Origin: Prosthecobacter debontii
GTDB lineage: Bacteria > Verrucomicrobiota > Verrucomicrobiia > Verrucomicrobiales > Verrucomicrobiaceae
NCBI GenBank assembly: GCA_945860295.1
Contig: CAMAQH010000039.1
Location: 1-35,781, forward strand
Length of the DNA stretch: 35,781 nucleotides
Direction of reading: 5' to 3'
Position numbers and translations under genes: made by a program
Shown: piece by piece, positions 7,131-31,443 of the stretch
Position numbering within the stretch: the first letter of the stretch is position 1
How the letters are laid out: each line of letters starts with the position of its first letter
Notes under the pieces: model-generated
Database searches by the model: none
Seen by the model: only the letters and a program-made list of their open reading frames with translations
Told to the model about the DNA's origin: nothing

Positions 7131-7191
7131 AGGCAGAAGAATGGGGGCAAAAGAATGGGTTCTTTATTCTCCTGCCCCCATTCTGTTGCCT
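7131..7191. repeat. Long imperfect inverted repeat (hairpin element)
   Basis: The left arm AGGCAGAAGAATGGGGGCA (7131-7149) pairs with the right arm TGCCCCCATTCTGTTGCCT (7173-7191), with two mismatches in 19 positions. The loop itself contains AGAATGGG and ATTCT, allowing a second short pairing. The element begins about 20 nt after the stop of the pectate-lyase-like gene and ends directly before the first recognisable codons of the DUF1549 relic. It may serve as a transcription stop. Its sequence resembles a purine-rich GGCAGAAGAATGGGGG intergenic repeat I recall from verrucomicrobial genomes (from memory, not searched). Confidence 0.8.
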
Positions 7192-7220
7192 GCTTCTAAC
7201 TCGTTTTCATCGCGACAAAC

Positions 7221-7911
7221 CTCCTCGCCGCCCAGAAATACGACAACCCCACGCCCTGGTCCTACCAGCGTATCTTCCATCATCCGGTTCAAGTCACCAA
7301 AGACGATCTCGACCGCTTCATCCTTGCGCGACTAGAAAAAGAAAACCTCGGCCCCATTGGTGACGCACCACGCGCCATCCTTATCCGCCGCGCGTCATTT
7401 GATGGATAATCTCCGCGAGCTCGGCAACCCGAAGGAAACCATCCGCTACGATCACGATCCACACTTCTGCCTGGGCGTCATCGAGAGCGAGATCAAAGAC
7501 TGCTAACTCGCCGTCGGTGGCGATCCATTTGAGCGCGAGGCCGCGCCTGATAGCGGCAAAATGACCATGCCCGCGCTGCCACCCATGCCCGTCATTTCGC
7601 CAAAATCATCGGGCAGTATCGAACTCGCGCAATGGATGACGCAACCCACGCATCCGCTCACCTCCCGTGTCATGGTGAACCGCCTCTGGCAGCCTCTTTT
7701 CGGCTAAGGACTCGTGCGCACGCACGATGACTTCGGCATCACCGACATGGGCGATACGGCAGAGACGGGCATCATCACCACGCATGATCTGCATGCCACG
7801 GTCCTCCATCTGCTCGGGATCAATCACGAGCAGCTGACCTACCGCTACGCTGGCCGAAACTTCCGCCTCACGGATGTGGAAGGCGTGGTGGCGAAGGACA
7901 TCCTCGCTTAA
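7221..7911 (+). pseudogene. Decayed, internally deleted DUF1549-DUF1553-DUF1501 relic
   Basis: Three recognisable pieces survive. The first (7221-7409, one frame) reads PWSYQRI, DRFILARLEKE and ILIRRASFD, the N-terminal part of a DUF1549 protein, then hits TAA. The second (from 7402, next frame) reads CLGVIESEIKDC-stop, GGDPFERE, then SGSIELAQWMTQPTHPL and VMVNRLWQ, the start of DUF1553, with in-frame TAA codons at 7504 and 7705. The third continues in that frame from DDFGI straight into [18 protein letters not shown] and [15 protein letters not shown], the C-terminus of a DUF1501 protein, ending at 7911. Large internal deletions must lie near 7401-7408 and near 7740. Intact relatives of all pieces occur at 19618-28553. 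The remnant is not functional. Residues before 7221 (LVFIAT) may be the end of a signal peptide. Confidence 0.88.
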
Positions 7912-7959
7912 AGCAACCGCCCCGACTCAGGAGGCTCAACCCATGGCTGTCCCAATCCT

Positions 7960-8334
7960 TCAAGAATGCGAAATGACAAACTCCTCCATCTTCCCATCCG
8001 GTCCGAAGAAGATGTAGATCTTGATTCCATTTCGACGACCAAATGCAAACGCAGCGTGGCTTGCAATCCGATCTGGCAGAGGTCGCCACCCAGTCATTGG
8101 AAATCGTTTACCCGCCTTCAAGGATTCGTGTGGTATGCCAAAGTATTTGATGACCTCAGATCTGGATGGGTTGCTGCGTAGGAAGGTCAAATCCTGCTTC
8201 GGCTCAACGACGAACGGGTGGTAAATAATTGGGTAGTAAATGAAAGCGTAAAACCCATAACCGACCGTAGCTACACATGCTAAAACCAAGAGCGTCTGAA
8301 GAAGCTTTCTTTCCATAGTGAGGATTAAAGTCAT
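7960..8334 (-). CDS. Small membrane-anchored protein, possibly BamE/SmpA-like
   Basis: A 124-residue protein with one N-terminal hydrophobic segment (about residues 12-36, LLQTLLVLACVATVGYGFYAF). The soluble domain contains SRSEVIKYFGIPHES and ends with a KIYIFFGPDGKMEEFVIS strand pair. That layout (helix, GxP turn, then F-x-DG-K strand) recalls the BamE/SmpA/OmlA fold, but there is no lipobox Cys and the match is weak. The start ATG overlaps the TGA of the upstream M50-HlyD gene by four bases (ATGA), suggesting translational coupling and a shared job. A second in-frame Met at residue 7 (8316) is an alternative start. It is the last gene of the minus-strand run and faces the DUF1501 relic. 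Confidence 0.7.
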   Translation of the reverse strand: MTLILTMERKLLQTLLVLACVATVGYGFYAFIYYPIIYHPFVVEPKQDLTFLRSNPSRSEVIKYFGIPHESLKAGKRFPMTGWRPLPDRIASHAAFAFGRRNGIKIYIFFGPDGKMEEFVISHS

Positions 8335-10535
8335 AGCCGGTAATCCAGGCTGATGAAGTCCAGGAGTTTCATCCAGAGAATGAGATGCACGGGCTGCATG
8401 GGGCCGTGAATGCGCACGGTGCCGGTCATGCCGGGACGTAAAAAATAATCGGCATTTGGTATGGCTACGAGCACGCCGTAAGTCGTCTCCAGCGGCATCA
8501 GGCGGCCTTCGGCATTGGGTTGCGCGGCGAGATCACCACCGAGCGTGGCGACGAGATTAGGCGGCAGTTCACGCGCGGGCGGTGTTTTGCGATCTTCGAT
8601 CACAGAGCCCTGGAACATTCGATCTGGCGCAGCGGACACTCGCAGATCGACAGCCTGTCCGGCACGTATGTGGCGGGCCTGGCGTTCGTTGAGCGGGATG
8701 TAGATCTGAATGGGATCAAGCTGCACAATCTCGCACATGGCATCGCCAGCCCTGAGGCTGCCTGCGGCGATCCGTTCGAGATCGGGCGTGATGACAATGC
8801 CTGCGCGTGAAGCTCGAAGGGTGAGGCGTGACGTGAGACGTTGGGCCTCCTTGAGAGCGACCTGGATTTGAGCGAGCTGAGACTGTGCCTGCTTGTAGGC
8901 GGCGGGCGCTTCGCTGCCGATGGTCATGTCGAGTTCACGTTCGGCGCGCTCGACTCGCAGTTCGGCGGCGTTCACATCGGCGGTGAGACGCGGGTTGCTC
9001 AGCACCGCGATGGCATCACCCACTTTGACTTCTTGACCCGTCTTAACCCGGATCCCCACGATGCGTCCCGACACTTCTGCGCGAACAAACTCTGCCTCAA
9101 CGGGCTGCATCACGGCGGGCCGCTCCACATTCACCGGCCAGGGCATTTGCAAAAGCAAAGCGCCAAGTACAAGAATCACGCTCAGGATGATCCAGGGTCG
9201 GCGGTTCGTGCGTGTGGCGGCGCGGTCGGCGGTAAGCTGTTTGGAGAAGAAAGACATCGCAGGCACAAGCAGCATCGAGATCAGCGCGCCGATGCCAATC
9301 CAATCGCCAAGCCACGCAAGTCCGTAGGGCTTGAGCAGATGATCGAAAAGCATCGCGATGCCGAGCGTGATATAAAGCAGGTAGAGCTGCGCCGCCACAC
9401 TGTAGAAAACGAACCAGCCTCGATTGCGACGCGGCAGCATGGACTCGACGGATGGCGTGCCGCCGTTCGGGCCGAAACAGAGGCGACGCATCATTCCACT
9501 CACGCACATCTGCGCTTTGGCACGCAAGTTCGGAACATCTAGCACGTCGGTGAGGATGTAGTAGCCGTCGAATTTCATCAGTGGGTTGGCATTGAAGAGC
9601 ACGGTCCACACGCTGGTGATGAGCATAAGATTGAAGAGAAGCTGCTGCGTCGATCCAGGCTGTGACACGGCCCAGAGCAACGTGGCGATGGCGGCGATCA
9701 CCAGTTCGATGTAGATGCCCGCCGCCGCGACGAGGATGCGGTGCCGCTTCTTCGGGAAGAGGTAGCTGTCGGTGACATCAGCATAGAGGAATGGCGAGAA
9801 GACGATGACCATCGCGCCCATCTCATGCACCTCACCGCCGTAGTGCTTGCAGGTCAGGCCGTGACCGAACTCATGAATGATTTTAACCGCAATCGTGAGC
9901 ACCCAGATCAGCGCGAGATTTGGCAGCGTGAGGAAGTTGTTCAGCGACGGAGCGATGCGCGGAAAATTCAGCGCAAACACCGCGACCCCGGCGAGCAGGA
10001 TGACGAGACTAATCGCAAAGCCAAGCCACGACCAGACCCAGCGCATGCGCCGTTCCATCCGAATGAGAACAGTGTCCGGGTCCCACAGCGGGATCTTCAG
10101 GAAAAGCGACTTCATGAACAGCCCCCATGGCGTGATGACCGGCTGCCGCGCTGTCTTGAGTCGTTGCTGGTGTCGTGCCGCTACGGCTGTTGTTTCCAAA
10201 AACCCGCCGAGTAGCAGTTCATTGGCAAAACGCAGGATGCGCTCGGTGATCTCAGTGCGCGACTGGCTCAGTGCTGCCTGTGGCTGAGATTGGTAAAAAG
10301 CCGCGCGTATCGCGGCGACGTCGCGTTTGCCATCGAAGAAAGAAGCCAGAGCAAAATCCTCGGCAGGCAGACGGAAGTATTTCAACGAGAGCGGATCTTT
10401 GATGATGGCAAATGCACGTCCTTCAAAGAGCTGGTGGCTGATCATCAAATCCGAGCGTAAGGCCGATGGCACAGTGCTTTCTACGTCTGGCGCTTTCTCA
10501 GCCGTGACCTCTGTGATGGACAAGGCTGCTTGCAT
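8331..10535 (-). CDS. PqqD-like / M50 metallopeptidase / HlyD-type fusion protein
   Basis: A 734-residue membrane protein with three parts. Residues about 28-115 look like a PqqD-type winged-helix peptide-binding domain (AFAIIKDPLSLKYFRL, FFDGKRDVAAI, RFANELLLGGFLE). Residues about 165-465 form a polytopic M50 core with the zinc motif HEFGH at 221-225 and a second metal-site motif NANPLMKFDGYY at 315-326 (Asp 323 the likely ligand). After the last membrane helix (about 446-463) comes a periplasmic HlyD-like arm: half-barrel VSGRIVGIRVKTGQEVKVGD near 488-507, a coiled coil, a second half (LRASRAGIV), then a beta domain. Such proteins are known as putative peptide zinc metalloproteases or adaptor fusions associated with peptide export. 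A separate HlyD-like gene ends 6 nt upstream. No ABC transporter or precursor peptide is evident in the window. Substrate unknown. Confidence 0.85.
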   Translation of the reverse strand: MQAALSITEVTAEKAPDVESTVPSALRSDLMISHQLFEGRAFAIIKDPLSLKYFRLPAEDFALASFFDGKRDVAAIRAAFYQSQPQAALSQSRTEITERILRFANELLLGGFLETTAVAARHQQRLKTARQPVITPWGLFMKSLFLKIPLWDPDTVLIRMERRMRWVWSWLGFAISLVILLAGVAVFALNFPRIAPSLNNFLTLPNLALIWVLTIAVKIIHEFGHGLTCKHYGGEVHEMGAMVIVFSPFLYADVTDSYLFPKKRHRILVAAAGIYIELVIAAIATLLWAVSQPGSTQQLLFNLMLITSVWTVLFNANPLMKFDGYYILTDVLDVPNLRAKAQMCVSGMMRRLCFGPNGGTPSVESMLPRRNRGWFVFYSVAAQLYLLYITLGIAMLFDHLLKPYGLAWLGDWIGIGALISMLLVPAMSFFSKQLTADRAATRTNRRPWIILSVILVLGALLLQMPWPVNVERPAVMQPVEAEFVRAEVSGRIVGIRVKTGQEVKVGDAIAVLSNPRLTADVNAAELRVERAERELDMTIGSEAPAAYKQAQSQLAQIQVALKEAQRLTSRLTLRASRAGIVITPDLERIAAGSLRAGDAMCEIVQLDPIQIYIPLNERQARHIRAGQAVDLRVSAAPDRMFQGSVIEDRKTPPARELPPNLVATLGGDLAAQPNAEGRLMPLETTYGVLVAIPNADYFLRPGMTGTVRIHGPMQPVHLILWMKLLDFISLDYRL

Positions 10536-10541
10536 GAGGCG

Positions 10542-11279
10542 TCAGGGTTTTGCCACTTCTAACTCTGCTCTCATGCCAGCTTTGAGCTTCAATTCCTTGT
10601 TATCCACGAGCAGTTTGATGCGGTAGAGACCGCTTTCGGCATCCATGCGCGGGTCGATGAAATCGATGGTGCCGGTGAAGACTTGCGGGTAGGTAAGCGA
10701 GGGGACTTTGAATTTGAGATCTGCCCCTGGCTTGAGCGTGCGGGCTTGATCGGGCTCCAGATAAAACTGGGCATAGACCTGCAGGATGTGGACGATCTGG
10801 ACGACGGTTTCATTGAGCAGCACCGCTTCACCGGGTTCCTTGTCCCGCTTCACCACGACGCCCTGAATCGGCGCGCTGATAGTGCGTTGTTTGAGCCGGA
10901 CCTGAGCGGCCTGCATTTGAAGTTTGGAGAGGTCGTGCTCGATCTGCTTCTTGAGCGCGTCCTCGCGTGTGCCGATCTTTTCAGCGAGCAGCTTCTGTGC
11001 GGCTTCATGATCAAACTTGGCTTTCTCCAGCACCTTTGCCATACGCTCGACATCAAGCTTCTCGACTTCGTCGTTGAGCTTCACGAGTGGCTGCCCTTTT
11101 TCGACCGTGTCGCCTTCTTTGACGAGCACTTCAGCGACGATGCCCGTGGCGGCGGTACCGACTTCGACATCATGCAGCGGGAGGATCAGACCGGGAACAG
11201 GGGCTGCCTGAAGTGCCTTAGAAAGCAGCATCAGAGCGATGATGGCGTCACGCCACGAGCGGCAGGTTTGGATCGACAT
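10542..11279 (-). CDS. HlyD/RND-type periplasmic adaptor subunit
   Basis: A 245-residue membrane-fusion protein. The N-terminus DAIIALMLLSKALQAAP looks like a signal peptide. It is followed by a lipoyl-like half (GIVAEVLVKEGDTVEKGQPLVKL), a helical hairpin (about 75-130, EKLDVERMAKVLEKAKFDHE), the second half (ISAPIQGVVVKRDKEPGEAV) and a beta-barrel domain ending KAGMRAELEVAKP. It is short for the family but complete. Its start overlaps the 3' end of tsaD by 32 nt, and it ends 6 nt before the M50-HlyD fusion, so the two adaptors are probably made together. A later Met (11231) would shorten the signal peptide too far. It lacks an obvious partner pump in the window. Confidence 0.85.
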   Translation of the reverse strand: MSIQTCRSWRDAIIALMLLSKALQAAPVPGLILPLHDVEVGTAATGIVAEVLVKEGDTVEKGQPLVKLNDEVEKLDVERMAKVLEKAKFDHEAAQKLLAEKIGTREDALKKQIEHDLSKLQMQAAQVRLKQRTISAPIQGVVVKRDKEPGEAVLLNETVVQIVHILQVYAQFYLEPDQARTLKPGADLKFKVPSLTYPQVFTGTIDFIDPRMDAESGLYRIKLLVDNKELKLKAGMRAELEVAKP

Positions 11280-18645: not shown

Positions 18646-19589
18646 CAGGCTTCACTTTACTGGCCACCGATTCCCATCACGAGGTTGTCGCAGACTGGCC
18701 CAAGTTGCCAGAAGCTCACGTTCTCGGCCTCTGCGCCGGAGTCGGTGTCGATGCGCAAAACCGCGTGTTTGTCTTCCACCGCAGTGGACGAAAGTGGTCG
18801 AATCCGTTTCCGACGGAGCCGATTGAAGCACCGACGGTAAGTGTGATCGATGGCACTTCCGGCAAGCTACTCAGCTCTTGGGGTGCAAACATGTTTATCA
18901 TGCCGCATGGACTCACAGTCGATCATGAGAGCAATCTTTGGCTCACGGATGTCGGGCTGCATCAGATCTTCAAATTTACGCCAGAGGGCAGGCTGCTGCT
19001 AACGTTGGGAGAGCGCGGCAAGCCGGGCAATGACCACTCGCATTTCAATCTACCCACCGATGTCGCAGTGCTGCGCGATGGTTCGTTTTATGTGGGCGAT
19101 GGCTACAAGAACACCCGCGTGATGAAATTCACCACCGATGGCAAGTTTGAGTTCGAGTGGGGCACGAAGGGCAAAGGCAACGGCCAGTTCAATCTTCCGC
19201 ATGGCATCGCCATTGATGCTCAGGGCCGTGTGATTGTTTGTGATCGCGAGAACGAGCGGCTCCAAGTCTTTGATGCCAAAGGCGGCTTCCTTCACGAATG
19301 GAAAGGCCCGCAGATCGGCAAACCCTACGGTGTCGAGATCAGCATCAACGGCCACATCTTCATTATCGACGGCGGCTCGCCTTCATTAAAGCCTGCGGAG
19401 CGTGGCAAGGCTGTCGAACTCGATTCACATGGGCAGGTGCTGGACACTTTCGGTTCGTTTGGAAAAGAGCCCGGGCAGTTCCAACTCGGCCACGACATCG
19501 CCATCGATCCAGACGGTGCCGTGTATGTTGCTGAAGGCACAGGAGCGCGCGTGCAGAAATTTGTGCGTCGATCTGGATCGGCAAAGTAA
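18603..19589 (+). CDS. Exported NHL-repeat propeller protein, peptidyl-hydroxyglycine amidating lyase-like
   Basis: A 328-residue exported protein. I use the ATG at 18603, which opens a signal peptide (HPKLSLLLAIQILTGFTLLA), rather than the ATG 18 nt upstream. The body is a six-bladed-propeller type with NHL units: MPHGLTVDHESNLWLTDVG, LPTDVAVLRDGSFYVGDGY, LPHGIAIDAQGRVIVCDREN, YGVEISINGHIFIIDGG and LGHDIAIDPDGAVYVAEG. Phe-Asn-Leu-Pro-His-Gly turns and a late Gly-His-Asp match the peptidylglycine alpha-amidating-lyase-like family common in planctomycetes and verrucomicrobia. Its real substrate in bacteria is not established; lyase activity is inferred from family only. It is the first intact gene of the plus-strand run, ending 28 nt before a DUF1549/DUF1553 gene. 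Confidence 0.85.
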   Translation: MHPKLSLLLAIQILTGFTLLATDSHHEVVADWPKLPEAHVLGLCAGVGVDAQNRVFVFHRSGRKWSNPFPTEPIEAPTVSVIDGTSGKLLSSWGANMFIMPHGLTVDHESNLWLTDVGLHQIFKFTPEGRLLLTLGERGKPGNDHSHFNLPTDVAVLRDGSFYVGDGYKNTRVMKFTTDGKFEFEWGTKGKGNGQFNLPHGIAIDAQGRVIVCDRENERLQVFDAKGGFLHEWKGPQIGKPYGVEISINGHIFIIDGGSPSLKPAERGKAVELDSHGQVLDTFGSFGKEPGQFQLGHDIAIDPDGAVYVAEGTGARVQKFVRRSGSAK

Positions 19590-19617
19590 ACGGTGTGACG
19601 GGCGTAGTACCGGCGTT

Positions 19618-22236
19618 GTGTTGTGCCGCATCGTCCAGATCAGTGCCTTATTCATCTCCACGAGTTTGCTCGCGGCGGAGCATTGGTCGTTTCAGCCGCT
19701 GAAGGCGGGCAAAGGCAACAGCATAGATGAATTCATTCAGCGTGGGCTCGCAGAGAAGGGCATGAAGTCATCGCCACGCGCGGATGCACACACCCTCATT
19801 CGCAGGGCCACCTTTGATCTCACTGGCCTGCCTCCGTCGGACGAGTCAGACTCGTCCGACATGTCAGACAAACACTTCGCGCACCTCGTGGACTCCCTTC
19901 TGGCGAGCCCGCACTACGGCGAGCAATGGGCGCGTCATTGGCTAGACGTGGCGCGCTACTCAGACACGAAAGGCTACGTTTATGCGCGTGAAGAAAAGCA
20001 GTGGGTTCATGCCACGCCGTATCGCGACTGGGTGGTGCGCGCCTTGAACGAAGACATGCCCTATGATCGCTTCTTGTTGCTACAAATCGCCGGTGATCAG
20101 ATTGTGCCACCTAACTCGCCTGACCTCGCCGCGATGGGATTTCTCACGCTCGGGCGGCGCTTTCTCGGCGTCACGCACGACATCATTGATGATCGCATCG
20201 ATGTCGTCACACGTGGCACTCTCGGCCTCACCGTCGCCTGCGCGCGCTGCCACGATCACAAGTTCGATCCCATTCCCACACGCGACTATTATGCGCTCTA
20301 CGGCGTCTTCCAAAGCAGCGCCGAGGCAGTGGTGCCTTGCGCTGTGGTCAGAAACGAAGAGCTGTCCGCTCTGGTGAAAAAGAACCGCGAGCTGATGACG
20401 AAACGCCGCGGCGAACAGATGGCACGCACGCGGGCACGATCTGCCGATTACATCGCCGCGCAGAAGGATCTGGAGAAGTATCCTGAAGAGGTCTTTGGCC
20501 AGCTTCTCGATGATAAAGACCTCAATCCCTTCATCGTGCATCGTTTCACCGCGTGGCTTGAAAAGCATCCTGGCAACGAATTGACCGAAGACACACTCAA
20601 GCAACTCGGCTCGCCCGCTTTCGTGCCCGATGAACACATCGCCAACATCGAGATGTATTTCCCCACAGGTGTAACCACCGAGCTGTGGAAATCACAGGCT
20701 GATGTAGATCGCTTCATCATCAAAAAAAGTGCCGCACCAGCTCACGCGACCGTTTTGGTCGATCGTCCACTGCCCAGCATGCCGCGTGTTTTCATTCGTG
20801 GCAATCCGCTGACGAAGGGCGATGAAGTGCCGCGTCAGTTCTTGAGCGCGTTTGGCAAACAAACGCCGTTCACAAAAGGCAGCGGTCGTTTAGAACTCGC
20901 GCAGGCCATCACCGATCCGCGCAATCCGCTCACCGCCCGTGTGATGGTGAACCGCCTCTGGCAGCACCACTTCGGGCGCGGACTGGTCAGCACACCGAGC
21001 GACTTCGGCAAGCAAGGCGGTGCGCCGAGCCATCCCGAGCTGCTCGACTGGCTCGCGCAGCGCTTCATCGACTCCGGCTGGAGCATCAAGGCCATGCATC
21101 GGCTCATCATGTCTTCAAAGACGTATCAGCAGAGTAGCCAGTCGAGTGATCTGAGTGATCCCGACAACCGCCTGCTCTCCCGAATGAACCCGCACCGCCT
21201 CAGCTTTGAAGAAGCACGCGATGCATGGATCTCCGCCGCTGGCCGACTGAATCGGCTTGTGGGTGGTCGTCCTGAAGCACTGTTCGCGAGCAGCAACACT
21301 CGCCGCACGCTCTACGCGCTCGTGGATCGCGAGAATGTGCCCGCTGTCATGCGCACCTTTGATTTCGCCAATCCCGATCTCTCCATCCCGCAGCGCACTG
21401 AGACCACGGTGCCTCAGCAGGCCTTGTTTGGCATGAATCATCCCTTTGTCGTGCAGCAGGCGAAGTCGCTACTAAATCGTCCCGAGGTGAAGTCCGCCGA
21501 TGCCAGCACACGCATCCACCGTATTTATGCCCGTCTGTTTCAACGTGCTCCGATGTCCGATGAACTGAACTTTTCTCTCGGATTTGTTCATGAAGACCAG
21601 GCCCCCATCATCGCCACTGCTGATCACTCTAAGTCCTGGCAATACGGCTACGGCGAGTGGGACGAGAGCACCGGCAAGGTGAAACACTTCAAGCCGCTGC
21701 CCCACTTCACCGGCATCGCTTGGCAGGGCGATGAAGCGTGGCCTAACGAAAAACTTGGCTGGGCGCAACTCACCGCCAGCGGTGGCCATCCTGGCAATGA
21801 CCGAAAGCACGCCGTCGTACGCCGCTGGGTTGCAGGGACTGATGGCAGCTACACGATCAATTCCACACTCATCCACGAACCGCAGGTCGGGGATGGCATC
21901 CGCGCCTTTGTGAGCCATTCACGCCTCGGTAAGCTGCGTAGCGCCACGGTGCTGGGAGTCGATGCCGTGATGAACCTCGATACCATCGCATTTAAAGCGG
22001 GCGACACCCTCGATTTCATCGTTGATATCGGCAGCGGCCTGAACAGCGACCAGTTCCTCTGGTCCCCGAAGATCACATCTTCTCTCACAGCCGTCACGGG
22101 CGCAGGCGGCGACACGCCGAATGACACCTGGGAAGCCGAAAAAGATTTCTCCGCCCAACCCAAATCCCAACTCACCGCCTGGGAGCAACTCGTGCAGGTG
22201 CTGATGCTCTCAAACGAGTTCATGTTTGTTGATTGA
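19618..22236 (+). CDS. DUF1549/DUF1553 (PSCyt2/PSD1) protein without an N-terminal cytochrome domain
   Basis: An exported protein of 872 residues. I choose GTG 19618 (or TTG 19621), which gives a signal peptide (LCRIVQISALFISTSLLAAE); an open frame from 19402 merely overlaps the previous gene. DUF1549 is clear: HTLIRRATFDLTGLPPS, YGEQWARHWLDVARYSDTKG, DMPYDRFLLLQIAGDQI and CARCHDHKFDPI (Cys at 208, a c-type-heme-like CxxCH). DUF1553 follows: SGRLELAQAITDPRNPLTA, RVMVNRLWQHHFGRGLVSTP, MSSKTYQQSS, TTVPQQALFGMNHPFV. About 180 residues (21601-22140) of beta-rich sequence (GIAWQGDEAWPN, GDGIRAFVSHSRLGK, FIVDIGSGLNSDQFLWSP) interrupt the end of DUF1553 before LVQVLMLSNEFMFVD. Unlike the second paralogue at 23609 it lacks the PSCyt1 heme domain. 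Function unknown; usually paired with DUF1501. Confidence 0.9.
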   Translation: MLCRIVQISALFISTSLLAAEHWSFQPLKAGKGNSIDEFIQRGLAEKGMKSSPRADAHTLIRRATFDLTGLPPSDESDSSDMSDKHFAHLVDSLLASPHYGEQWARHWLDVARYSDTKGYVYAREEKQWVHATPYRDWVVRALNEDMPYDRFLLLQIAGDQIVPPNSPDLAAMGFLTLGRRFLGVTHDIIDDRIDVVTRGTLGLTVACARCHDHKFDPIPTRDYYALYGVFQSSAEAVVPCAVVRNEELSALVKKNRELMTKRRGEQMARTRARSADYIAAQKDLEKYPEEVFGQLLDDKDLNPFIVHRFTAWLEKHPGNELTEDTLKQLGSPAFVPDEHIANIEMYFPTGVTTELWKSQADVDRFIIKKSAAPAHATVLVDRPLPSMPRVFIRGNPLTKGDEVPRQFLSAFGKQTPFTKGSGRLELAQAITDPRNPLTARVMVNRLWQHHFGRGLVSTPSDFGKQGGAPSHPELLDWLAQRFIDSGWSIKAMHRLIMSSKTYQQSSQSSDLSDPDNRLLSRMNPHRLSFEEARDAWISAAGRLNRLVGGRPEALFASSNTRRTLYALVDRENVPAVMRTFDFANPDLSIPQRTETTVPQQALFGMNHPFVVQQAKSLLNRPEVKSADASTRIHRIYARLFQRAPMSDELNFSLGFVHEDQAPIIATADHSKSWQYGYGEWDESTGKVKHFKPLPHFTGIAWQGDEAWPNEKLGWAQLTASGGHPGNDRKHAVVRRWVAGTDGSYTINSTLIHEPQVGDGIRAFVSHSRLGKLRSATVLGVDAVMNLDTIAFKAGDTLDFIVDIGSGLNSDQFLWSPKITSSLTAVTGAGGDTPNDTWEAEKDFSAQPKSQLTAWEQLVQVLMLSNEFMFVD
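19836..19860. repeat. Perfect 11-bp inverted repeat inside the DUF1549 coding region
   Basis: The arms GTCGGACGAGT and ACTCGTCCGAC are separated by CAG. The element is read in frame as Ser/Asp/Glu-rich codons (SDESDSSDMSD) where relatives have a variable loop after LTGLPP. It is most simply a palindromic repeat unit that was tolerated in a surface loop. Confidence 0.9.
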
Positions 22237-22237
22237 T

Positions 22238-23590
22238 ATGAATCTGCCTCTCACACGCCGAGATTTTCTGAGCCGCTCCGGCATGGGGATGGCAGCGCTT
22301 GGGTTGGCTGACTTACATGCATCAAAGCCGCACTTCGCGCCGAAGGCGAAGCGAGTGATCCATTTCTTCCTCAATGGCGGACCATCGCATGTCGATACGT
22401 TTGATCCGAAACCGGCGCTGGCAAAGTATGAAGGCAAGCCGGTGACGAGTCATCGCATCACCGAGCGAAAGACAGGCGCGGCCTTTCCTTCACCGTTCAA
22501 GTTTCAGCGTTACGGGCGGAGCGGGATTGAGGTGAGCGAGTTGTTCGCGAAAACAGCGGCGCATATCGACGACATCGCGGTGATCCGGTCGATGCAGGCT
22601 CAGGTGCCGAATCATGAGCCGTCACTGATGCTCATGAATTGCGGTGATTCGATCCAGGCTCGCCCGAGCCTCGGCGCATGGCTGACGTATGGCCTTGGCA
22701 GTGGCAATGAGAACCTGCCAGGCTTCATCGCGATGTGCCCAGGCGGCATGCCGATCAAGAGTGCGGAGAACTGGCAGTCGGCGTTTTTGCCGGGAGCGTT
22801 TCAGGGAACCTATGTTGATTCGCAGCATCAATCCGTGGATCGTTTGATCGAAAATATCCGCAGTCCACATGCCGACACGCGCGTGCAGATGCGGCAGCTC
22901 GAACTCATGCGGCGGCTCAATGACGCGCATCGTCAGCAGCGCAGTGATCCTCGGTTGGAAGCCCGCATTCAGAGCTTCGAGCTGGCCTTCCGCATGCAGA
23001 TCGAGGCGGCGGATGCCTTTGATGTGAGCAAAGAACCGCAGCACATGCGCGACCTGTATGGCGACGGCGTGCATGGCCGACAGACGCTCATCGCACGGCG
23101 ACTTCTGGAGCGTGGTGTGCGCATGGTGCAGCTCTGGCATGGCGCGGGTCAGCCATGGGACAATCACGACAACATCGAGACGAATCATCGCAAACTCGCC
23201 GCACAGATCGACCAACCCATCGCTGCATTGCTGCACGATCTGAAGCAGCGCGGCATGTTGGAGGATACGCTCGTCATCTGGGGCGGCGAGTTTGGTCGCA
23301 CGCCGACCGTCGAGTTGAGTGGCGGCAAATCGAAGCTCGGACGCGATCACAATCACTACGGCTTCAGCGTCTGGATGGCGGGCGGCGGCATCAAAGGCGG
23401 CACGGTCTATGGCAGCACCGACGAGTTCGGTTTCGCGGCCCAGGAGAATCCGACCAGCGTGCATGACCTCCATGCGACGATCCTTCACCTGATGGGTCTC
23501 AATCACGAAGAACTAACCTATCGTTACGCCGGCCGTGATTTCAGGCTCACGGATGTCTATGGGGATGTCTTGACGCCCATTTTGGCATGA
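22238..23590 (+). CDS. DUF1501 exported (Tat-type) protein
   Basis: A 450-residue DUF1501 protein, a family related to the alkaline-phosphatase/sulfatase fold. I start at ATG 22238, one base after the stop of the DUF1553 gene, because LTRRDFLSRSGMGMAALGLA directly follows as a twin-arginine signal. Family marks are HFFLNGGPSHVDTFDPKP, VRSM-type IRSMQAQVPNHEPS, RPSLGAWLTYGLGSGNENLP, a helical middle with QSFELAFRMQ, MVQLWHGAGQPWDNHDN, LVIWGGEFGRTP, DHNHYGFSVWMAGGGIKGG and HDLHATILHLMGLNHEEL, then YRYAGRDFRLTDV. The His/Asp-rich motifs suggest metal binding. It almost always travels with DUF1549/DUF1553 proteins, as here. The Tat signal implies folding, possibly with cofactor, before export. 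Activity undetermined. Confidence 0.92.
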   Translation: MNLPLTRRDFLSRSGMGMAALGLADLHASKPHFAPKAKRVIHFFLNGGPSHVDTFDPKPALAKYEGKPVTSHRITERKTGAAFPSPFKFQRYGRSGIEVSELFAKTAAHIDDIAVIRSMQAQVPNHEPSLMLMNCGDSIQARPSLGAWLTYGLGSGNENLPGFIAMCPGGMPIKSAENWQSAFLPGAFQGTYVDSQHQSVDRLIENIRSPHADTRVQMRQLELMRRLNDAHRQQRSDPRLEARIQSFELAFRMQIEAADAFDVSKEPQHMRDLYGDGVHGRQTLIARRLLERGVRMVQLWHGAGQPWDNHDNIETNHRKLAAQIDQPIAALLHDLKQRGMLEDTLVIWGGEFGRTPTVELSGGKSKLGRDHNHYGFSVWMAGGGIKGGTVYGSTDEFGFAAQENPTSVHDLHATILHLMGLNHEELTYRYAGRDFRLTDVYGDVLTPILA

Positions 23591-23608
23591 GGGACACTGG
23601 CGATCGCT

Positions 23609-25993
<2,385 letters not shown>

Positions 25994-26013
25994 ACGTTCA
26001 TTTCTCCACCGCT

Positions 26014-27153
26014 ATGCCACCGAAGAAACCAAAAATGCCCGCAAAGAAAAAAACCAACGAACGCCTAGCTCGCGGACGTGTGCATGATGGTGCCCAGTTC
26101 ACCGCCGCAGCACTCGCAGGCGACATGCCTTCGGGCTATGGGCGCATGCTGAACGAAATCAAAAAGCAGGTGCAACAAGCTCGTCTGCGCACAGTTCTCG
26201 CAGCCAACGCCATGATGGTCGTCGCCTACTGGGAGGTGGGTCGTGTGATCCTTTCACGACAGCAATCCGAAGGCTGGGGTGCCAAGGTGATCGACCGCCT
26301 CTCCATCGACCTACGAACCGCCTTTCCTGACATGCAGGGGCTCTCCCCACGGAATCTCAAATACATGCGCGCCTTTGCCTCTGCGTGGCCAGACGAATCA
26401 ATTGTGCAACGGGTAGTTGCACAATTGCCCTGGAAGCAAAACATTGCTCTTCTTGATAAGCTCAAATCTCCAACCGAACGGCTCTGGTATGCTCGTAAGG
26501 CGGCAGAAAACGGTTGGTCACAGCCCATTCTTTGCCTGCAAATCGAGAACGAACTGCATCAGCGCGAAGGCAAGGCGCAGAGCAACTTTGAACTGACACT
26601 GCCGCCTGAAGACTCCGATCTGGCCGCGCAGATTTTCAAAAACCCGTATCTCTTCGACTTTGTCGGCACGGATGATCCAAGACGCGAGCGCGAGCTAGAA
26701 CAGGCACTCGTGGATCACATTCAGCATTTCTTGCTCGAGTTAGGAGCTGGATTCGCCTTTGTGGGGCAGCAGGTTCATCTCGAAGTGGGTGACGATGACT
26801 TCTATATCGACCTGTTGTTCTACCATTTGCGACTTCGACGCTATGTCGTGGTGGAGTTGAAGAACCGCGAGTTCAAGGCGGGTGATGCAGGCCAGATGAA
26901 CCTCTACCTTTCCGCTGCCGACGACTTACTAAGGCACGCTGACGATCAACCAACCATCGGCCTACTGCTGTGCAGAGGGCGCAACAAACTGGTCGTCGAG
27001 TATGCATTGCGCGGGCTGGACAAGCCGATTGGCGTCGCTGGCTGGAAAACCAACCTTGTTGAGACATTGCCTAAAGAACTACAGAGCAGCCTGCCAACCG
27101 TGGCTCAGATCGAAGCCGAGTTGAGCAGCAAAACCGCCAAACACGCCAAGTGA
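26014..27153 (+). CDS. DUF1016 / YhcG-family PDDEXK nuclease
   Basis: A 379-residue cytoplasmic protein; no signal peptide. The ATG at 26014 is favoured over a TTG at 25990 that overlaps the previous stop. A Lys/Pro-rich basic N-terminus (1-20) leads to the DUF1016 N-terminal helical domain (about 40-180: VVAYWEVGRVIL, LSPRNLKYMRAFASAWPD, QLPWKQNIALLDKL). The C-terminal PDDEXK domain has DDDFYIDLLFYH (Asp 266), VVVELKN (Glu 281, Lys 283) and AGQMNLYLSAAD, a complete catalytic set. Relatives occur near restriction-modification and mobile defence genes, though their role is unsettled. Here it sits alone between a DUF1553 and a DUF1501 gene. Its stop codon shares a base with the next start (TGATG). 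It is the only non-exported product in that run, which hints at insertion of an accessory gene. Confidence 0.93.
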   Translation: MPPKKPKMPAKKKTNERLARGRVHDGAQFTAAALAGDMPSGYGRMLNEIKKQVQQARLRTVLAANAMMVVAYWEVGRVILSRQQSEGWGAKVIDRLSIDLRTAFPDMQGLSPRNLKYMRAFASAWPDESIVQRVVAQLPWKQNIALLDKLKSPTERLWYARKAAENGWSQPILCLQIENELHQREGKAQSNFELTLPPEDSDLAAQIFKNPYLFDFVGTDDPRRERELEQALVDHIQHFLLELGAGFAFVGQQVHLEVGDDDFYIDLLFYHLRLRRYVVVELKNREFKAGDAGQMNLYLSAADDLLRHADDQPTIGLLLCRGRNKLVVEYALRGLDKPIGVAGWKTNLVETLPKELQSSLPTVAQIEAELSSKTAKHAK

Positions 27154-28553
27154 TGAACACGATACATTCACGACGCGAGATGCTGACGACGATGTCTTCC
27201 GGCATCGGCTGGCTGGCGTTTTCATCGCTGGCCCAACAAGCCGTAGTCAAAGGCGGTCTGGCTGCCAAAGAGCCGCATTTTGCACCGCGTGCGAAGCGGG
27301 TGATTTTTCTCACGATGCGCGGCGGGCCGTCGCATGTGGATCTCTTTGATTACAAGCCTGAGCTGATCGCACGCAACGGCAAGACAGCGAGTTTGGGGCG
27401 TGATTCATCGGGCGCGAAGCTGTTTGGGCCGGTGCATCCGTTTGCGCAGTTTGGGAAGTCGGGACAGTGGATGACGACGCTGTATCCAAAGCTGGCAAAG
27501 CACGCGGACGACCTCTGCATCATCAACTCGATGCACACTGACCTGCCGAATCACGCACAGGCTTTCGGGCAGATGCACACGGGTAGTTTTCAGTTTGTGC
27601 GGCCATCGATTGGTGCGTGGACACTTTATGGCCTCGGCACCGAGAATGAAAATCTGCCGGGGTTCATCACACTCAATCCACCGGCGGACAATGGCGGTGC
27701 ACAAAACTACGGCAGCGCGTTCTTGCCCGCGATCTGCCAGGGCACGAAACTCGGCGGCAGTCAGTTGCCGGAGCTGTATTCGGCCTTGTTGAAGAAGGAC
27801 GTGGCTCCAGGACCACCGATGAAAAATATCGTGAGCGCATCGCCGCGCGAGTTGCAGCGCGCGCAGATCGACCTCATTCGCGGTTTGAACGAGCGGAAGC
27901 TGGAGCGCGACGGCTTTAATCCTGAGATCGAAGGTGCCATCCAGTCCTTTGAACTCGCGTTTCGCATGCAGAGTGAGGTGCCCGACGTGCTCGACCTTCG
28001 CAGTGAGCCGGAGCACATCCTGAAGCTCTACGGCATCGGCCAGGGGAAGGATCAATTCGCGAGGCAGTGCCTGCTGGCGCGGCGCATGGCCGAAGCAGGC
28101 GTGCGCTTCATCGAGATCGCATCACCAGGGAATTGGGATCATCACAATCGCCTGCGCGAACTGCTGGCGACAAATTGCGCGGCCACGGATCAGCCCATCG
28201 CGGCGCTGCTCACCGATTTGAAAGCACGCGGCATGTTGAAGGACACGCTGGTGGTGTGGGCGGGTGAGTTCGGCCGCACGCCGTATGCGCAGAGCGAGGA
28301 CGGTCGCGATCACAATCACAAAGGCTACTCCATCTGGATGGCTGGCGGCGGAGTGAAGGGCGGCCTTACTTACGGCGCGACGGATGAGACCGGCTACAAA
28401 GCCACACTGAACCCCATGCACATCCACGACTGGCACGCGACGATGCTGCATCTGCTGGGCCTCGATCACACGAAGCTCACCTACAACTACGGTGGCCGGA
28501 ATTTCCGCCTGACGAATGTGAGTGGTGAAGTGGCGAAAGGGATCATCGCGTGA
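27153..28553 (+). CDS. DUF1501 exported (Tat-type) protein, second copy
   Basis: A 466-residue paralogue of the gene at 22238. ATG at 27153 overlaps the nuclease stop by one base; a GTG one codon earlier is also possible. The N-terminus SRREMLTTMSSGIGWLAFSS is a twin-arginine-type signal. Matching family motifs: VIFLTMRGGPSHVDLFDYKP, INSMHTDLPNHAQ, RPSIGAWTLYGLGTENENLP, QSFELAFRMQ, FIEIASPGNWDHHN, LVVWAGEFGRTPYAQ, DHNHKGYSIWMAGGGVKGG and HDWHATMLHLLGLDHTKL, then YNYGGRNFRLTNVSG. It was presumably translated directly after the cytochrome-DUF1553 gene before the nuclease gene came between them. It ends 18 nt before a sulfatase gene. Confidence 0.92.
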   Translation: MNTIHSRREMLTTMSSGIGWLAFSSLAQQAVVKGGLAAKEPHFAPRAKRVIFLTMRGGPSHVDLFDYKPELIARNGKTASLGRDSSGAKLFGPVHPFAQFGKSGQWMTTLYPKLAKHADDLCIINSMHTDLPNHAQAFGQMHTGSFQFVRPSIGAWTLYGLGTENENLPGFITLNPPADNGGAQNYGSAFLPAICQGTKLGGSQLPELYSALLKKDVAPGPPMKNIVSASPRELQRAQIDLIRGLNERKLERDGFNPEIEGAIQSFELAFRMQSEVPDVLDLRSEPEHILKLYGIGQGKDQFARQCLLARRMAEAGVRFIEIASPGNWDHHNRLRELLATNCAATDQPIAALLTDLKARGMLKDTLVVWAGEFGRTPYAQSEDGRDHNHKGYSIWMAGGGVKGGLTYGATDETGYKATLNPMHIHDWHATMLHLLGLDHTKLTYNYGGRNFRLTNVSGEVAKGIIA

Positions 28554-29972: not shown

Positions 29973-30012
29973 TCGGCGCAAGCTTGAGGTGCGGCCTGCG
30001 TTCTCATCGGCC

Positions 30013-31443
30013 ATGCGTTCGCTTTTCTTCTTTCTTCTCGTCTCGTCGCTTCATGCGGCGAAGCCAAACGTTCTGTTCATTATGGCGGATGATTTCCGCC
30101 CGGAGATCGGCTCCTATGGCTCGACAGCACTAACGCCGAACCTCGACAAACTGGCGGCACGCAGCGTGCAGTTTAATCGGGCTTACTGCCAGCAGGCCGT
30201 GTGCAATCCATCGCGCTCTTCGTTGCTCACTGGGCGGCGGCCTGACACGCTCCAGCTCTGGAATAACGGCACGCATTTCCGCGAGTTGAACCCAGACGTG
30301 ACGACTCTGCCGCTGTGGTTCAAGGAGCATGGATACACGACCCGATGCGTGGGAAAGATTTTTCATAATTGGCACACGACGGAGAAAGGAGACCGCCTCT
30401 CATGGAGCGCGGATGAGTTCCTGCATTATGCGAATCATGGCGATGACAAACCGCTGATCTCCGGCGAGTTGCCGCCGAACTCGGCGGTGCTGAGCACACG
30501 AGTTTATGGCGCCACGACGATCTGTGAGCGCCGCGATGTGCCGGACGAAGCCTACTATGATGGTCGTGTGGCGGCTGAGGCACAGCGGGTGATGCAGGAG
30601 GTAAAGGATAAGCCTTTCTTTTTCGCCGTTGGTTTTTGGAAACCCCATGCGCCGTTTAATGCGCCGAAGAAATACTGGGACATGTATGACCGCGCGAAAC
30701 TGCCACCACTGAATGGCGCGCGGCCTGAAGGTGCGCCAGAAATCGCCTTCCATCAGAGCACGGAGATTCTCGGCCCCGTGGCGAAGCAGACGCCAGTGTC
30801 ACCTGAGCAGGCGGCAGAGATGCGGCACGGCTACTTTGCCAACATCAGCTACATGGACGCGCAGATCGGCAAGGTGCTCAGCGCGCTGGAGAAGAGCGGT
30901 GCGGCGAGCAACACGATCATCGTTTTCTTTGCCGATCACGGTTATCACATCGGCGAGCACAGCCTGTGGGGGAAGACCTCAGACTTTGAATTCGACGCAC
31001 ATGTGCCTTTGATGATCAGTGATCTTCGCCTCAGCAATCGAGGGAAGAAAACGAACGCACTGGCCGAACTGGTGGATCTGTTTCCGACACTCGTTGAGCT
31101 GTGTGACTTGCCTATGCCGACAGGCCTCGATGGTGTGAGTCTCGGCCGTGTGCTGACTGATCCGGCGCAGTCGGTTAAGCCGGCGGCTTTCACGCAGCAT
31201 CCGCGACCAGCTTACTTTGATCGCGAGCCAAGCAAGAAACCGAAGGCGATGGGTTACAGCGTGAGGACGAGCGCAGTGCGCTACACTGAATGGCGTGATT
31301 GGCAGACAAAGGAAGTCACAGCGCGCGAGCTGTATGCGACGGAGCAAGATCCGGCGGAATTGAAGAACCGGATCGACGATGCAGCGCTCAAAGATCAACG
31401 CGCTGAGGCAGCGAAGTTATTGCGGGAAAGATTTCCAAACTAA
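30013..31443 (+). CDS. Iduronate-2-sulfatase-like sulfatase
   Basis: A 476-residue exported sulfatase. ATG 30013 opens the signal peptide (MRSLFFFLLVSSLHAA). NVLFIMADDFRPEIGSYGS carries Asp 26-27; the formylglycine motif is CNPSR at 64-68, followed by SLLTGRRPDT. TRCVGKIFHNW, FFFAVGFWKPHAPFNAPKKYWDMY and FADHGYHIGEHSLWGKTSDFE are characteristic of the iduronate-2-sulfatase subgroup rather than arylsulfatase A. Natural substrate unknown; planctomycete and verrucomicrobial members are usually placed in sulfated-polysaccharide loci. It starts 40 nt after the first sulfatase and is the last of the exported genes; the permease gene begins 42 nt later. Confidence 0.93.
   Translation: MRSLFFFLLVSSLHAAKPNVLFIMADDFRPEIGSYGSTALTPNLDKLAARSVQFNRAYCQQAVCNPSRSSLLTGRRPDTLQLWNNGTHFRELNPDVTTLPLWFKEHGYTTRCVGKIFHNWHTTEKGDRLSWSADEFLHYANHGDDKPLISGELPPNSAVLSTRVYGATTICERRDVPDEAYYDGRVAAEAQRVMQEVKDKPFFFAVGFWKPHAPFNAPKKYWDMYDRAKLPPLNGARPEGAPEIAFHQSTEILGPVAKQTPVSPEQAAEMRHGYFANISYMDAQIGKVLSALEKSGAASNTIIVFFADHGYHIGEHSLWGKTSDFEFDAHVPLMISDLRLSNRGKKTNALAELVDLFPTLVELCDLPMPTGLDGVSLGRVLTDPAQSVKPAAFTQHPRPAYFDREPSKKPKAMGYSVRTSAVRYTEWRDWQTKEVTARELYATEQDPAELKNRIDDAALKDQRAEAAKLLRERFPN

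Follow-up and report, generated by a model that had tools for sequence, protein, structure and literature searches.

The protein encoded at positions 8331–10535 of the window (the whole analysed stretch of 35,781 nucleotides from Prosthecobacter debontii) probably belongs to an export machine devoted to surface proteins that carry an N-terminal tag, in which it would be the inner-membrane component for recognition and processing. Instead of an orphan peptide exporter, the system of the window is a variant, lacking SecA and divided over separate loci, of a secretion module about which little is known. The SecA-bearing form of the module is already known (2015; accessible text of PMC4452313), and the new elements are the likely cargo and its signal. 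A candidate cargo and a candidate signal are thereby found for a machine described from gene neighbourhoods alone, and what the widespread LEPR-XLL leader means becomes open to testing. The parts of the fusion are located as follows.

8331–10535, minus strand: RRE(PqqD-like)-M50/S2P-HlyD fusion, one intact ORF of 734 aa, core of the machine
10179–10472, minus strand: RRE/PqqD-like putative leader-binding domain, residues 22–119 (predicted model against structures; PF05402 in 12/63 members)
9537–9929, minus strand: S2P/M50 core, residues 203–333 (RseP, SpoIVFB and mjS2P structures; PF02163 in 63/63 members)
9861–9875, minus strand: HEFGH zinc motif, residues 221–225 (H221, E222 and H225 invariant in 63/63)
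9561–9587, minus strand: NPLMKFDGY motif, residues 317–325 (N317, D323 and G324 invariant in 63/63)
8373–9146, minus strand: adaptor arm, predicted periplasmic, residues 464–721 (MacA/MexA/AcrA fold match; PF16576, 3e-16)

The family alignment (A2/A3) comprises 63 sequences, that is, the window fusion and the 62 relatives kept from 67 ORFs of 640–800 aa. Seven of its positions never vary: H221, E222, H225, N315, N317, D323 and G324. The HExxH motif and the distal D-G motif both fall within the membrane core, the pattern by which M50/site-2 proteases are recognised; by its zinc-site residues the M50 domain is an intact peptidase, with proteolysis itself predicted. For the window sequence, Pfam places HlyD_D23 (PF16576) at residues 484–645 and M50, weakly and below its cut-off, at residues 212–291 (2.7e-4), and the window fusion alone gives no PqqD match. 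The family counts listed above hold at E ≤ 0.5, with best values of 1e-10 for PF02163 (M50) and 6.5e-8 for PF05402 (PqqD).

The predicted structures (pLDDT 88 for the full-length fusion and 92 for residues 1–456) were compared with known folds. Residues 22–119 of the model match 5V1U with a Z score of 10.8 (2.6 Å over 84 residues), 6JX3 with 10.8 and 5V1V within 10.4–10.8; all three are lasso-peptide B1 proteins whose structures include the bound leader. Against PqqD, the scores are 8.7 (5SXY) and 6.3 (3G2B). The membrane core of the model matches RseP, SpoIVFB and the M. jannaschii S2P (mjS2P) with Z 9.3–10.7, and residues 464–721 match MacA, MexA and AcrA with Z 16–18. Foldseek alone returns no PDB match at E ≤ 0.001 for residues 1–456 (best 0.012, mjS2P), and the RRE and S2P fold calls are taken from the VIA-align second look instead of from Foldseek E-values. 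In the model, residues 22–119 fold as an RRE/PqqD domain; for its putative leader binding, the observation is co-occurrence with leaders. A sequence-only reading had proposed a PqqD-like domain, an M50 peptidase (HEFGH plus NPxxKFDGY) and an adaptor arm in one chain, and had staked this on the PqqD-like fold; both the architecture and the fold are borne out by the intact ORF, the invariant motifs and the matches of the model. Because the membrane part contains seven long helices in the model and six stretches by simple hydropathy, the sidedness of the RRE and of the adaptor arm is not settled; going by the side of the membrane on which domains of these kinds are known to lie, the RRE would be cytosolic and the arm periplasmic.

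Two further ORFs flank the fusion closely.

10542–11279, minus strand: separate HlyD/RND-type adaptor, 245 aa, hydrophobic segment 13–33 (TIGR01730, 140.9 bits against a cut-off of 94.9)
7960–8334, minus strand: small ORF of 124 aa that begins with a hydrophobic segment and shares 4 nt (ATGA) with the fusion stop

Six nucleotides separate the end of the adaptor ORF from the fusion downstream, and the two are neighbours in 11 of the 16 genomes with a window-type fusion. The adaptor is not adjacent in G005, G023, G037, G039 and G044, and the stretches compared around the GAF-HlyD genes of these genomes hold no close copy of it. The small ORF has no family match in Pfam or NCBIfam, nor any tblastn match (E ≤ 1) in the 206 other loci, including the flanks of fusions 62–74% identical; among the 207 loci it matches the window genome alone and, judged by sequence, lies outside the conserved machine. 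The positions of both neighbours, a second adaptor 6 nt upstream and a stop/start-coupled small ORF downstream, had been described correctly from the sequence. The conserved three-gene unit of adaptor, fusion and small gene that was built on them is rejected, since the small gene has no match in the other loci; the adaptor is adjacent only in the fraction given above. The 23 window ORFs scanned (23609–25993 and 29989–31443 are among the few left out) contain no ABC transporter or radical-SAM domain, in agreement with the sequence-only reading, and no recognisable daptide enzymes.

Elsewhere in the window, the plus strand between a pectate lyase and the small ORF (7140–7915) resembles, on inspection by eye, the end of a broken gene of DUF1501/DUF1553 type; intact relatives of that gene are located at 19402–28553. 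A DUF1016/YhcG PDDEXK nuclease (25990–27153, plus strand; PF06250, 2e-62) is flanked by a DUF1501 gene and, judged by eye, a DUF1553-like gene, and starts overlap stops in this group.

The genes recurring around the fusion, in loci found by the fusion alone and in stretches of related genomes, are an OEP channel, a small HlyD, a GAF-HlyD and the fusion, sometimes with a short SecA-like protein and then sometimes with a giant protein. In the window genome, the TolC-like channel and the GAF-HlyD occupy another contig (C2:218924–222517).

C2:220547–222517: GAF-HlyD of the window genome (PF01590 and PF16576)

The cognate GAF-HlyD is present in 15 of the 16 window-type genomes, the exception being the fragmented G045, and in no other of the 96 relatives at E < 1e-70. 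In the window group, OEP and GAF-HlyD form a locus of their own, an OEP being found in 8 of 9 stretches around the GAF-HlyD gene. The tails of the fusion (LDFISLDYRL, window 8331–8390) and of a GAF-HlyD (RWLRMRWWL, L115:10450–10518) appear by eye to be short and to contain aromatic residues and arginine; each is possibly a docking end.

The short SecA-like protein, mostly 630–710 aa long (SecA_DEAD 9e-78 in L128), separates two groups of fusions. In a tree of 99 sequences (FastTree, midpoint-rooted, untrimmed alignment), the SecA-less clade of the window spans several phyla. SecA lies within five genes of the fusion in 0 of its 28 mapped loci, 14 of which have over 3 kb of flank at each end, versus 18 of 41 in the other clade, and the lack of SecA therefore looks like a clade trait. 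A GAF-HlyD is near the fusion in 19/28 and 33/41 loci, respectively. At the genome level, matches to the short SecA better than 1e-97 are found in 18 of 19 genomes with a SecA-type fusion, in 0 of 16 with the window type and in 0 of 61 others. The window genome itself has one full SecA (1072-aa ORF) and a sub-cut-off match in a helicase-like frame; a secondary SecA is absent.

A recurring motor in the SecA-less clade was sought by neighbour clustering, among the 14 largest clusters per clade, and by Pfam on 84 window-clade neighbour ORFs of 200–900 aa, among the 25 commonest of 123 families; the ORF caller is simple and misses some genes (e.g. the G041 adaptor, seen by tblastn). ABC_tran occurs in 4 of the 84 ORFs, so that no pump recurs with the fusion in this clade. 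Three of the four are an ABC exporter (L037), a Wzt-type ATPase (L046) and, by eye, a UvrA-like ORF (L090), and two families matching Wzt_C lie among the four. Radical-SAM is not found among these 25 commonest families. In L037 (Brevifollis gellanilyticus), a cultured window-type strain and the nearest named relative of the window, the ABC exporter (ABC_membrane and ABC_tran; L037:5591–7492) lies two genes upstream of the fusion; a protein kinase also precedes the fusion there and the small adaptor is missing. A DUF3467 protein (PF11950) stands beside the machine in three SecA-less relatives (L041:12176–12505, 2e-12; L042:4585–4965, 3e-15; L044:1204–1599, 3e-9), and a methyltransferase-domain protein lies between GAF-HlyD and OEP in two Opitutaceae loci (L046:7002–8399 and L048:7082–8449).

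Candidate cargo for the window-type fusion is found elsewhere in the genome. The window genome has no match to LEPR-8K (NF012209) at E ≤ 1, the 17-bit cut-off not being reached, and its leaders are of a different form. The leader at the start of a 568-aa protein on contig C1 (104637–106343) contains LESLESRLAPAG; that of a broken copy on contig C40 contains LEPRSAPAG. The C40 gene (L181:7617–8788) is split into several short frames (50, 185 and 119 aa), as either a decayed copy or an assembly fault. Both candidates are unlinked to the fusion, and one of the two copies is broken. When a leader profile (A1) of four rows from three genomes is searched over the 96 relatives, proteins starting with LExLExRxAPAG are found at E ≤ 1e-4 in the same 16 genomes as the window-type fusion, i.e. 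16/16 versus 0/80 (Fisher 1.5e-18 over 96 genomes, with relatedness not accounted for). Within the genus (48 genomes) the split is 16/16 versus 0/32. Because three of the 16 genomes supplied the A1 rows, the independent finds are 13 of 13. Weaker matches (E 0.007–0.1) occur in 8 of the 80 genomes negative for this fusion type, nearly all over the repeat part; in G003, which lacks the fusion, one match falls over the leader part (E 0.007) in a 66-aa frame. Two distant members, L123 and L124, have a leader protein and a GAF-HlyD near the fusion.

Among the cargo stretches, a leader ORF is present in 19 of 20 (the exception is L191). These 19 ORFs contain 12 cysteines in 12124 residues; one is the 50-aa broken copy and the others measure 568–1144 aa. 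G, N, T and S are abundant in the three cargo proteins whose complete sequences were inspected. With N-termini taken from the last Met before the leader motif, no strongly hydrophobic N-terminal stretch is seen in the window-type cargo, the highest 17-residue mean being 1.29. The likely cargo proteins are large and poor in Cys, consist of beta-repeats and bear a leader at the N-terminus; they are not small peptides, which replaces the peptide substrate assumed in the sequence-only reading. A cut after APA is a guess.

The scattering of the parts over contigs, the broken cargo copy and the lack of a secondary SecA in the genome would also be expected if the window copy were a decaying remnant that has lost its SecA motor and its cargo. 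This seems unlikely, as the catalytic residues are intact, the leader protein is kept in all 16 window-type genomes and the GAF-HlyD in nearly as many, and the missing SecA looks like a trait of the clade. The earlier alternative of a system that is either incomplete or works differently does not hold in its first half: the machine is not simply incomplete, its channel and GAF-HlyD lying on C2 and its candidate cargo on C1 and C40.

For the other fusion type, the candidate cargo consists of giant adhesins with a LEPR-XLL leader at their start, which adjoin the fusion in some relatives. At E ≤ 0.05, a threshold chosen after the table was seen, LEPR-8K is matched in 21 of the 96 relatives, comprising 19/19 SecA-type genomes, 1/16 window-type and 1/61 with neither (Fisher 3.7e-18). 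The curated cut-off gives 23 genomes, adding G011 and G024, both without a fusion, and raising the last count to 3/61; LEPR-8K without a fusion is also found in G062 and G177. Relatives of the Neptunomonas genome behind L112 form a second set of 144 genomes, 60 of them with a fusion and 41 with a LEPR-8K match at E ≤ 0.001; the fusion is present in 40 of these 41 versus 20 of the 103 without LEPR-8K (Fisher 2e-19, relatedness not accounted for). Of the 62 LEPR matches in the set, 49 share a contig with a fusion; the distance is at most 5 kb for 17 and at most 45 kb for 47. The 20 of 60 fusion genomes without a LEPR-8K match perhaps carry variant leaders or are incomplete, as perhaps do the 11 without one among 28 other fusion genomes (17 have a match); these 28 were hand-picked from 78 loci, in several cases on account of a leader protein already seen there. 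Of the giant leader proteins scanned, 4/4 have cadherin- or Ig-like domains and 3/4 DUF4347; the RTX repeat match in that of L107 is below cut-off, and the candidates of L128 (2310 aa) and L124 (873 aa) have no Pfam domain.

As a neighbourhood control, a fixed regex was run against the N-terminal 70 residues of ORFs of at least 300 aa outside the machinery, using the 72 of 78 loci with a fusion ORF longer than 300 aa. It matches 15 of 246 N-termini near fusions, in 15 of the 72 loci, whereas 500 shuffles give 0.14 matches on average and never more than 2; 57 of the 72 loci have no leader ORF in the stretch covered. In control ORFs of the window genome there is 1 match in 63, which reads by eye like the start of release factor 2 (a chance match). 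Since the regex was written after examples had been seen, this result is support and not a blind test. A single coincidence is argued against by the occurrence in one genus in 16 of its 48 genomes, together with the recurrence of the pattern in another phylum. Collectively, the co-occurrence of fusion type with leader type is specific and splits by fusion type.

The RRE fold would also be expected of RiPP maturation of a daptide or epipeptide-like kind, in which the fusion would cleave and export a small modified peptide. The strongest NCBIfam match of the fusion is indeed the daptide HExxH peptidase NF041824 (residues 39–428, 5e-58), followed by a weaker match to YydH/LiaK, and the two Opitutaceae loci have their methyltransferase-domain neighbour. 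However, the daptide score of 196.9 bits does not reach the curated cut-off of 300, radical-SAM is absent from both the window ORFs and the common neighbour families covered, and the leader-bearing neighbours of the fusions are large (436–3249 aa); a small-peptide system is accordingly set aside as improbable. An efflux or adaptor complex for small molecules, with the peptidase regulating or maturing pump parts, would account for the HlyD/RND-type adaptors, the OEP channel and the ABC exporter of L037 and is the least probable reading, given the rarity of ABC_tran, Wzt_C-matching families included, around window-clade fusions and a leader/fusion match that is specific and splits by fusion type.

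Returning to export of leader-tagged surface proteins, a short leader (LExLExRxAPAG in the window type and LEPR-XLL in relatives) would be bound by the cytosolic RRE, just as RiPP leaders are by RRE domains. Next, the M50 domain may cleave at or near the leader, or its site may gate passage, and the fused arm, the separate HlyD and the GAF-HlyD would together form a periplasmic conduit to the TolC-like channel. Hand-over across the envelope, already suggested from the sequence, is judged right as the likely task. Where relatives have SecA, pushing of the chain is probably the work of this short ATPase, as was proposed for the module in 2015 (accessible text of PMC4452313). It can be put forward tentatively, with the balance somewhat against it, that this is a secretion route of its own kind, in which an RRE reads the leader, an adaptor-fused site-2-type peptidase processes it and a TolC-like conduit exports the protein, with the window clade lacking a dedicated ATPase and two leader dialects pairing with two machine types. 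These findings point to recruitment of a leader reader of RiPP type for giant adhesin export in Planctomycetota, Verrucomicrobiota and Proteobacteria.

Peptidase-containing ABC exporters working with HlyD and TolC likewise combine leader recognition, a leader peptidase (C39), an adaptor and a channel. They differ in that C39 is replaced here by an RRE and an S2P-type peptidase, and in that no ABC motor recurs with the fusion. In classical type I secretion the ABC transporter is encoded with the adaptor, unlike in the 23 window ORFs scanned. The daptide peptidase NF041824 resembles the fusion over both its RRE-like and its M50 parts, and the fusion differs from it by the added adaptor arm and the sub-cut-off score.

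The closest counterpart is the secondary SecA_DEAD/type-I-related module described by Kamneva, Poudel and Ward in 2015. According to the accessible text of that paper (PMC4452313), it comprises an M50-HlyD protein, a GAF-HlyD, a HlyD/biotinyl-lipoyl protein and sometimes an OEP, and occurs in Planctomycetes, Verrucomicrobia and Proteobacteria; its authors propose SecA as the ATPase, M50 as the pore and a role in secretion, and call the broader role "completely unknown". Its main text, as accessible, mentions neither LEPR nor PqqD. The window system shares with this module the M50-HlyD protein and, elsewhere in the genome, the GAF-HlyD; in contrast, the secondary SecA by which the module is defined in that text is lacking in the window genome and in all 16 window-type genomes. 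The literature searched, with most subscription papers outside it, yielded no paper linking LEPR proteins to the M50-HlyD machine. In the accessible text of the other papers, a giant LEPR-XLL protein of a Vibrio appears with no mention of the M50-HlyD machine (PMC10868602) and LEPR-XLL is mentioned as a transcript only (PMC9611531), while a classical type I S-layer system (PMC13274458) and a citation of Kamneva only (PMC5313232) have no bearing here. With respect to the signal itself, LEPR-XLL (NF012209) is the leader domain of the cargo candidates in SecA-type relatives, and the leader of the window genome is, by comparison, a variant ending in APAG.
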